Assembly (NCBI RefSeq): GCF_023715525.1
Contig: NZ_JAMBOG010000010.1
Coordinates: 62,001-126,000 of the forward strand
DNA from: Kocuria rosea
GTDB lineage: Bacteria; Actinomycetota; Actinomycetes; Actinomycetales; Micrococcaceae
Direction of reading: 5' to 3'
DNA: 64,000 nucleotides
Below, in pieces: positions 33,795 to 35,942 of this stretch (position 1 is the stretch's first letter; every line of letters starts with the position of its first letter). Under the pieces are notes generated by a model, which was given only the letters and a program-made list of their open reading frames with translations, had not been told where the DNA came from and did not search any database. The translations under genes and the position numbers were made by a program.

Positions 33795-33824
33795 CCCTCC
33801 GGCGCTGTTGCGCTCCGCGGAGGG
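33795..33824 (+). terminator. Composite hairpin after the CFA synthase gene
   Basis: Outer stem CCCTCCG/CGGAGGG encloses the inner stem GCGC-TGTT-GCGC. It overlaps the putative -35 of the following riboswitch promoter. Confidence 0.5.
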
Positions 33825-33856
33825 ATTCCACTACGGTGTGGTGACAGTCACCATAC
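33808..33856 (+). promoter_or_regulatory. Promoter with palindromic operator ahead of the glycine riboswitch
   Basis: TTGCGC (33808) and TACGGT (33832) are 18 bases apart, which places the start near 33844. A palindrome, TGGTGAC-A-GTCACCA, centred on 33846 and extending with one mismatch over 33836-33856, covers the start point. The TGGT/ACCA ends recall FadR-type GntR operators, but the regulator is unknown. Confidence 0.55.
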
Positions 33857-33871
33857 TGCAGCCGTTGACGT

Positions 33872-34062
33872 GCGGCGGGAGAGTCCCGTCCGGCACGACC
33901 GGTCGGGCGCCGTAGGAGCAATTCCTCCCCGGGAAACTCTCAGGCCCCCGCACCGCCGCACCGAGGCGAATCTGGAAAGTGGCACGGTCGTTCCCGTGCT
34001 CGCCGAAGGAGCAAGCTCCGCCCGGTCCGGGCGGGACGGAAACTCTCAGGCTGTGCAACAGA
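33872..34062 (+). promoter_or_regulatory. Tandem glycine riboswitch
   Basis: Two glycine aptamers lie in series. The first has GGGAGAGTCCCG, CGCCGTAGGAGCAA and GGGAAACTCTCAGGC. The second has CTGGAAAGTGG, CGCCGAAGGAGCAA and CGGAAACTCTCAGGC. These are the standard conserved cores of the family. Binding of glycine normally turns on glycine cleavage genes. Here the first reading frame downstream is a gcv deletion scar (34120), followed by sdaA. Confidence 0.93.
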
Positions 34063-34119
34063 TCGGGGAGGAACCAAGAAACCGCGTGGCGCGGCCGCGC
34101 AGACTTCTGGAGTTCCTCG

Positions 34120-34422
34120 ATGACGATCACCACGGCTCGCCCCACCACCGGCCACCCCAGCGGCGAGCACACCTTCGCCGACCGCCGCCTCCCGCAGACC
34201 CTCGCCGTGGCGCGGGGCCGGGCCGAGGCCCTGGGCTTCGAGGTGGAGGTCGCCGACCTCTCCGCGGGGGTGCCCGAGGGCGAGATCTCCGGGATCGTGC
34301 TCCAGCAGCCCGGCGACGACGGCGCGGTCGTGGACCACACCGCCACCGTCGCGGTCTCCCCGGAGGACCCGCTCCTGTCCGCCCAGGACTACGCCGCCGC
34401 CCCCGGAGGTGAGCTCGCATGA
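34120..34422 (+). pseudogene. gcvP/gcvH in-frame deletion scar
   Basis: A 100-codon frame with a good ribosome site (GGAG at spacing seven). Residues 1-21 look like a GcvP N-terminus ending FADR, where intact proteins continue HIG. It then jumps to an internal GcvP stretch: [46 protein letters not shown]. The last part, [16 protein letters not shown], resembles a GcvH C-terminus. No lipoyl site, PLP lysine or intact domain remains. The stop overlaps an ATG preceded by GGAGG that opens only a six-codon frame. A glycine-cleavage function is not possible from this piece. Confidence 0.82.
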
Positions 34423-34511
34423 GCCCCCGCGCCGGCTGATCCCGCGCGACGCCCGCACCCCGCCACACCTCCTGCCCCCGTCCGGGGGCACCACCTGCTT
34501 TGGAGCACACC

Positions 34512-35942
34512 ATGGCCATCAGCGTCTTCGATCTGTTCACCGTGGGCATCGGCCCCTCGAGCTCCCACACCGTTGGGCCCATGCGCGCTGCCGGGCGCTT
34601 CGCCCGGACCCTGGTCGAGGACCGTCTCCTCGAGGCCACCGCGGACCTGCGCGTGGACGTCTACGGATCGCTGGCCGCCACCGGCCGCGGCCACGGCACG
34701 TTCACCGCGATCCTGCTGGGCCTGGAGGGCTACGACCCCGAGCAGGTCCTTCCCGCCCAGGTCGAGGACCGGCTCGCCGACATCGCCGCCACCGGCACGC
34801 TGCGGCTGTGCGCCGCGCTCGGGCACCGCAAGGACATCCGCTACACCGTCGAGGACATGGTGCAGCACCCGCTGACCGTGCTGGCCCGGCACACCAACGG
34901 CATGCGGTTCCAGGCCCTGGACGCCGGCGGGGGCGTGCTGGCCGAGCAGACCTGGTTCTCCGTGGGCGGGGGCTTCATCGTCCGCGACGGCGAGGAGGAC
35001 ACCGCCGCCGCCGAGCTGGCCGCCGCCGGCACCCAGGTGCCCCACCCCTTCCGCACCGCCCGGCAGCTGCTGGACCACTGCCGGGCCACCGGGGGCAGCA
35101 TCAGCGAGGTGATGCTCGCCAACGAGCGGACCTGGCGGACCGAGGAGGAGGTCCGGGCCGGGCTGCTGCACCTGTGGGAGGTGATGGAGCAGTGCAAGGA
35201 CTCCGCGATCACCCGCACCGGGGTGCTGCCCGGGGGCCTGGACGTCGCCCGCCGGGCCCCGGGGTGGCACCGGCGCCTGCGCATCGAGGACCCGGACCGG
35301 GACCCGGGCTTCTGGCAGGAGTGGGTGAACCTGGTGGCCCTGGCCGTGAACGAGGAGAACGCCTCCGGGGGCCGGGTGGTCACCGCCCCCACCAACGGAG
35401 CGGCCGGCATCATCCCCGCCGTGCTGTTCTACGCCACCCACTACTCCCCCGCCGTGCGCGCCGCCGCCCGACAGGCCCCGGAGACCCTCGAGGCGACGCG
35501 GCAGGAGATCGTCGTGCGGTTCCTGCTCACCGCCGGGGCGGTCGGGGTGCTGTACAAGGAGCAGGCCTCGATCTCCGGGGCCGAGGTCGGCTGCCAGGGC
35601 GAGGTCGGCTCGGCCTCCTCGATGGCGGCGGGCGGTCTGGCCGAGGTCCTGGGCGGCACCCCCGGCCAGGTGGAGAACGCCGCCGAGATCGCCATGGAGC
35701 ACAACCTGGGCCTGACCTGCGACCCGATCGGCGGGCTCGTGCAGGTGCCGTGCATCGAGCGCAACGCGATCGCCGCGGCCAAGGCCATCAACGCCGCGAA
35801 GATGGGCCTGTGGGGTGACGGCACCCACCGGGTGAGCCTCGACCAGGTCATCGTGACCATGCGCGAGACCGGCCGGGACATGAGCCACAAGTACAAGGAG
35901 ACCGCCCTGGGCGGGCTCGCCGTCAACGTCGTCGAATGCTGA
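34512..35942 (+). CDS. sdaA: L-serine ammonia-lyase (single-chain, [4Fe-4S])
   Basis: 476 residues; converts L-serine to pyruvate and ammonia in the cytoplasm. The beta-type domain has [12 protein letters not shown] at the N-terminus. The alpha domain has [15 protein letters not shown] and the iron-sulfur cysteines in [28 protein letters not shown]. The ATG at 34512 has GGAG at spacing six; an in-frame TTG at 34500 overlaps that site. It follows the glycine riboswitch and the gcv scar with no intervening terminator seen, so its expression may respond to glycine. Confidence 0.95.

Follow-up and report, generated by a model that had tools for sequence, protein, structure and literature searches.

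Organization of the locus

The window analysed here is a 64-kb stretch of a Kocuria rosea genome (G000:C2:62001-126000; the assembly spans 3.64 Mb in 73 contigs and is 99.99% complete), within which a leader carrying a tandem glycine riboswitch precedes the serine deaminase gene sdaA on the plus strand, at a distance of 450 nt. The original prediction had the strand, the order and the coordinates of these elements right, save for the left end of the riboswitch, which it set at 33872 and which lies at 33866. The features of the locus are listed below, with identities to the corresponding regions of the congeners G005 and G006.

33808-33837, plus strand: promoter-like site of the leader, TTGCGC-18-TACGGT (looser promoter pattern and conservation)
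33837-33852, plus strand: operator-like palindrome TGTGG-N6-TCACC, overlapping the -10 element (conservation only)
33866-33965, plus strand: glycine riboswitch aptamer 1 (RF00504, 61.6 bits; covarying P1)
33970-34063, plus strand: glycine riboswitch aptamer 2 (alignment of 15 Kocuria leaders, covariation)
34061-34128, plus strand: predicted expression-platform hairpin, GAUCG and GAGGAAC pairing with GUUCCUC and CGAUC (fold)
34120-34422, plus strand: leader ORF of 100 codons made of gcvP and gcvH remnants (comparison with G005 and G006)
34120-34186, plus strand: gcvP start remnant, positions 1-67 from the old ATG, of which 42-67 match G005 at 96%
34190-34338, plus strand: internal gcvP remnant, positions 71-219 from the old ATG, 93% to G005
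34344-34424, plus strand: remnant of the gcvH end, positions 225-305, 84% to G006 and, over 243-305, 86% to G005
34419-34439, plus strand: mini-ORF of six codons and a stop, ATG AGC CCC CGC GCC GGC TGA (sequence)
34429-34458, plus strand: possible trace of the glyA end, positions 310-339, a weak match (87% over 30 nt to G005, E 0.04)
34459-34506, plus strand: former glyA-sdaA junction, including the ribosome-binding site of sdaA (GGAG, 34502-34505), positions 340-387, 90% to G005
34512-35942, plus strand: sdaA, iron-sulfur L-serine dehydratase of 476 aa (Pfam domains; alignment to 4rqo)

Both domains of SdaA score over their cut-offs (PF03313, 293.7 bits; PF03315, 182.6 bits), and residues 1-476 align full-length to the solved L-serine dehydratase 4rqo. 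Cysteines C361, C403 and C414, which we take to be the cluster ligands, are invariant among eight SdaA proteins and, together with the final cysteine, presumably the conserved C-terminal one, align to cysteines in 4rqo. A second SdaA, 61% identical, is encoded on contig C15 of the same genome.

Rfam lists a single glycine aptamer in the window, aptamer 1, far above the gathering score of 32 (E 2.4e-10). Aptamer 2 stays under this score and goes unlisted in the 64-kb window even at E<=1, and aptamer 2 of the intact operon in G006 is likewise not listed. Over its whole length, aptamer 2 aligns with 14 other Kocuria leaders; its P1 pairs AUCUG with CAGAU (33970-33974 and 34059-34063), and its helices covary in the 15-species alignment. 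Across the tandem as a whole, two-sided changes were found in 20 of the 50 consensus pairs, so that the leader holds two adjacent aptamers with a conserved core and covarying helices. Folding of the whole leader gave no significant signal (z -1.51). Judged from these alignments, an intact tandem glycine riboswitch, predicted to respond to glycine, is present upstream of sdaA.

A deletion scar between the riboswitch and sdaA

The interval between the riboswitch and sdaA holds, in this order, the start of gcvP, an internal piece of gcvP, the end of gcvH, a possible trace of glyA and the glyA-sdaA junction. No gcv gene stands between the two elements, only these remnants, and the claim that gcvPTH had been removed and the glycine leader left in front of sdaA is borne out by the pieces of the scar and by the lack of any other promoter-like site between them. 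The mini-ORF at 34419-34439 overlaps the stop of the leader ORF and possibly marks a scar that joins the start of glyA to its end. By this account, several deletions would have excised gcvPTH and glyA from an ancestral riboswitch-gcvP-gcvT-gcvH-glyA-sdaA operon, leaving the leader promoter, the two aptamers, the expression platform and the former start of gcvP upstream of sdaA.

The gcvP and gcvH pieces share one frame and thereby form the 100-codon leader ORF, which scores 23.8 bits against the GDC-P profile, under the threshold of 26. We rejected the openness of this frame as a sign of selection, given that a fraction of 0.49-0.90 of shuffled spacers are equally open, as expected by chance at this G+C content. 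In the corresponding spacers of two further Kocuria genomes, G015 and G023, all three frames are open apart from a TGA overlapping an ATG. The G015 spacer carries a trace resembling the end of gcvP followed by the sdaA junction (the junction 95% identical to that of G005), and that of G023 has no clear match to genes of the old operon.

Two minor features of these spacers may be recorded. A hairpin of the form CCCCC-N4-GGGGG lies at 34475-34488, just 5' of the sdaA ribosome-binding site, and comparable pairs of C-runs and G-runs are found in this position in G005, G015 and G023. In G015 (L134, 1039-2745), the leader ORF continues in frame into sdaA without a stop, giving 568 codons and possibly a longer SdaA.

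Glycine cleavage genes elsewhere in the genome

A search of the genome for other gcv genes, as the original prediction had proposed, found another tandem glycine riboswitch (C67:90190-90414), followed by intact gcvP and gcvT, and a separate gcvH at C4:66426-66782. Glycine cleavage is therefore still encoded, behind a glycine riboswitch of its own, and the deletions upstream of sdaA would have been tolerated because this second riboswitch-gcvP-gcvT locus and the separate gcvH remain. On this count, the proposal that glycine now switches on serine breakdown rather than glycine cleavage is not borne out. A circuit rewired in this manner, with serine deamination induced in place of cleavage, is suggested by the position of the riboswitch directly upstream of sdaA with the gcv genes deleted; we consider it highly improbable, however, given the gcvP, gcvT and gcvH genes elsewhere, with gcvPT under their own tandem riboswitch, and given that sdaA already stood behind the riboswitch in the intact operon.

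The second unit (C67:90190-94454) lies between rplL, encoding L7/L12, and rpoB, inside the ribosomal-protein and RNA-polymerase cluster, and the same gcvP-rpoB neighbourhood is found in relatives. In three of these (G003, G014 and G021; loci L139, L141 and L146), gcvT was not detected in the gcvP-rpoB interval, and these species may rely on the gcvT of the operon.

Recurrence in Kocuria

A glycine riboswitch, gcvP and gcvH are present in all 27 Kocuria genomes. In G005 and G006, the same leader is followed by an intact gcvP-gcvT-gcvH-glyA-sdaA operon, and in G005 sdaA is the final gene of this same-strand run. Since in intact relatives sdaA already ends the series of genes behind the riboswitch, its control by glycine appears to be ancestral, and was probably inherited rather than rewired.

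The genes gcvPTH and glyA are missing between riboswitch and sdaA in three of the 27 genomes: G000, G015 and G023. An aptamer was found within 1.5 kb upstream of sdaA in these same three among 30 fetched loci, a scan that covered 30 of 36 sdaA places with 1.5-kb flanks and thus leaves more distant riboswitches outside its view. G021 was left out of the assessment of operon state, its gcv genes and sdaA lying near the ends of different contigs.

The three genomes do not group together. G000 is sister to the intact G005 in the sdaA tree (99/95), G015 and G023 pair in the gcvP-B tree (100/99), and in the rpoB tree the latter two fall with G003, G014 and G021. Approximately unbiased (AU) tests reject a G000+G015+G023 clade for sdaA (p 3e-4), gcvP-B (p 0.011) and rpoB (p 3e-7, the G015 row being just 30% filled), and also for the three genes concatenated. 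Since the three are not one clade, the losses number at least two; unless intact species regained the genes by transfer, the gene trees indicate that gcvPTH-glyA was lost at least twice in Kocuria. The methyltransferase upstream and the oxidoreductase downstream in the window had no match in nine stretches from relatives, which include short flanks only.

Promoter and operator region of the leader

No intrinsic terminator or sigma-70 promoter was found by scan on the plus strand between the leader and sdaA. As the sigma-70 scan did not pick up the promoter-like site of the leader itself (33808-33837) either, a looser pattern, TTG-N16-19-TANNNT, was used. From 100 nt upstream of the aptamers to sdaA, this pattern occurs once in each of G000, G015 and G023, namely at the leader's own site, which reads TTGCTT-17-TAGGCT in G015 and TTGCCT-17-TAGATT in G023, with a spacing of 17 nt in both. 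The G000 interval from the aptamers to sdaA lacks even a single TANNNT hexamer.

These scans address the possibility that a promoter downstream of the riboswitch serves sdaA alone and cuts it off from the leader. The original prediction had named such a promoter, or a terminator, within 34063-34512 as grounds for abandoning its claim. Neither turned up among sigma-70-type patterns or in the terminator scan, and in G005 sdaA closes the same-strand run from gcvP. The conserved glyA-sdaA junction (90% in G000 and 95% in G015 relative to G005) could hide a promoter of another type, but with no TANNNT in the G000 interval, no site of the looser pattern other than the leader's in any of the three genomes and no terminator-like site on the plus strand, we regard an isolated sdaA as improbable.

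The palindrome at 33837-33852 resembles what we take to be a CRP/GlxR operator. As a stand-alone motif it was rejected, since the window contains one match to TGTGN7TCAC against 1.07 expected by chance, and only its conservation counts. A palindrome at the leader's -10 element is also present in G005, G006, G015, G023 and a Citricoccus locus (L147), with a perfect TGTGA-N6-TCACA at this position in G005 and L147. This conservation suggests that control of a cAMP type may be added to control by glycine.

Predicted expression platform and probable direction of the switch

The predicted platform hairpin (34061-34128) encloses the former translation start of gcvP, with its Shine-Dalgarno sequence (GGAG, 34109-34112) and AUG (34120), and the foot of the hairpin has bases in common with the 3' strand of the aptamer-2 P1. 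The fold of 34040-34140 has an energy of -40.9 kcal/mol (z -2.31). All 18 platform pairs are kept in G000, and 14-18 of 18 across eight aligned species, although the stem pairing is mostly invariant and covariation is thin; the exclusion of P1 by the hairpin is predicted from the shared bases alone.

Taken with the lack of a terminator and with the logic described for a comparable switch (PMC13104608), this arrangement is most likely an ON-type, translational switch. Without glycine, the 3' strand of the aptamer-2 P1 and the sequence following it would pair with the Shine-Dalgarno sequence and the AUG where gcvP once began; when glycine is present, P1 would form and the start would open. A translational tandem glycine ON switch has been tested experimentally in Neisseria gonorrhoeae and, according to the consulted part of that report (PMC13104608), it likewise lacks an intrinsic terminator, and without glycine its aptamer-2 sequence pairs with the site of translation initiation, as predicted here. 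There, the start that opens is that of gcvT itself, whereas in K. rosea it would be the start of the leader ORF derived from the scar, 392 nt before sdaA.

Given this distance, and given that sdaA has its own Shine-Dalgarno sequence, regulation of the former gcvP start does not necessarily extend to sdaA. Translation of the leader ORF could shield the mRNA from polarity, or could be coupled to that of sdaA, and in either case glycine would raise SdaA; we infer that such a relay to sdaA, and with it a glycine response in the cell, probably exists. Glycine would then induce its own cleavage, from the second locus, together with the serine-to-pyruvate step. A bolder version of this idea, which we put forward tentatively, is that repeated excision built, on more than one occasion within the genus, a stand-alone switch from glycine to serine deaminase, in which the riboswitch acts on sdaA indirectly, by gating the scar-derived leader ORF, and ribosome traffic relays the signal to sdaA.

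Conservation of the aptamers in the genomes that lost gcvPTH-glyA

If the riboswitch had lost its use along with gcvPTH, decay of its structure might be visible in the three genomes with excised operons. Of the 50 consensus aptamer pairs, 49 are kept in G000, 48 in G015 and 49 in G023, compared with 45-49 in the other 12 leaders, all of which have gcvP close downstream. Among the 90-91 columns that are invariant in the other 14 rows of the alignment, none is changed in G015 or G023 and one is changed in G000. A candidate compensatory change in P1 of G015 was rejected, the position being a U-U mismatch. Pairwise identities among G000, G015 and G023 are 0.85-0.90 in the aptamers, 0.79-0.83 at third positions of sdaA and 0.59-0.61 in the spacer, with shuffled spacers at about 0.50. 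G006 was left out of the position-by-position sdaA identities on account of an indel. A switch that remains in use would be expected to give such a pattern, though part of the aptamer conservation may be older than the deletions. On such comparisons, the leader does not look like a decaying spare.

The same data bear on the more modest reading that the leader is a spare relic, in which its promoter transcribes sdaA and the gene's own ribosome-binding site translates it whatever the glycine level, the riboswitch being an inherited 5' end. The original prediction had allowed for this, calling the circuit rewired if the cell had no other gcv copy and the riboswitch spare if it had one; by that rule the copy found makes it spare, but structure retained after at least two losses speaks against a spare in decay. 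A second riboswitch-gcv locus is indeed present, the start faced by the switch is the former one of gcvP, 392 nt upstream of sdaA, and promoter and leader might be kept regardless, as sdaA needs a promoter in any case. Moreover, the deletion in G000 may be recent, its internal gcvP piece being still 93% identical to G005. Against this stand the aptamer pairing, equal to that of gcvP-bearing species in three species after at least two losses, and the order of the identities, highest in the aptamers, lower at sdaA third positions and lowest in the spacer. We therefore judge a spare relic to be unlikely, albeit a more serious contender than an isolated sdaA.

We consider it likely that the locus is an eroded Kocuria operon in which glycine still switches on sdaA by acting on translation at the former start of gcvP. 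The riboswitch is, most likely, neither rewired nor plainly spare, and instead provides an inherited and still-used control of serine deaminase. The locus amounts to a natural experiment on the reasons for which a riboswitch is retained: the main targets of the switch became redundant and were deleted, the switch stayed with the last gene, and its structure gives no sign of decay. If control of sdaA by glycine persists, selection would act on the glycine-induced conversion of serine to pyruvate itself, and not only on glycine cleavage. In addition, the scar lends itself to a clean test of the way in which regulation at the start of a leader is passed on over hundreds of bases of a high-G+C actinobacterial mRNA.

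Comparison with other loci and published systems

Control of serine dehydratases by glycine riboswitches has been described in other settings. In Streptomyces, gcvT-gcvH-glyA-sdhA, ending in a serine dehydratase gene, is under a tandem glycine riboswitch (PMC12452182). These actinomycete operons resemble the K. rosea locus in having a tandem glycine riboswitch upstream of a serine dehydratase, and differ from it, as far as the consulted part of that source goes, in that the dehydratase gene closes a gcv operon that is still intact, whereas sdaA is here the first intact gene (PMC12452182). Predicted glycine-riboswitch control of sdaA, as here, has also been published for beta-proteobacteria and two mycobacteria, with no deletion scar described and no statement of whether sdaA is controlled directly or as a distal operon gene in the part of the article consulted (PMC3766115). 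The main text of a study of glycine aptamer conservation by genomic context mentions neither serine nor Kocuria (PMC6944388). Across titles and abstract openings, with few subscription journals represented, we found no riboswitch-sdaA unit left by deletion and no work joining riboswitch, Kocuria and glycine cleavage. Riboswitch control of serine dehydratase within operons is thus already published, and it is the excised riboswitch-sdaA form that appears to be new.

Among the best 80 of at least 588 confirmed relatives, which were scanned as named sdaA loci, 25 have a glycine aptamer upstream of sdaA. Fourteen of these precede gcvT-gcvH-glyA-sdaA, two precede gcvP-led operons, three precede gcvH-sdaA and one each precedes gcvT-gcvH-sdaA, gcvT-sdaA and glyA-sdaA; the remainder comprise one Hydrogenophaga locus and two loci without such genes. 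In Hydrogenophaga flava (L223, 4424-6001), the aptamer lies 1.5 kb before sdaA, and gcvP, gcvT, gcvH and glyA were not recognised between them.

The two loci without gcv or glyA genes between riboswitch and sdaA belong to Microbacterium oleivorans (L156) and to the metagenome-assembled Citricoccus sp. WCRC_4 (L147). In M. oleivorans, the aptamers lie directly before sdaA, as in K. rosea, with a gap of 160 nt after the end of aptamer 1; unlike in K. rosea, gcvP and further ORFs follow downstream of sdaA in the same direction, and there is no scar. The nearest parallel to the K. rosea locus among these best 80 of at least 588 named relatives is the Citricoccus locus, which has the same succession of a riboswitch, a short leader ORF from a gcvP-like start and then sdaA. 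Its leader ORF has 47 codons and ends 17 nt before sdaA, its scar differs from that of K. rosea, and gcvP is present elsewhere in the assembly.
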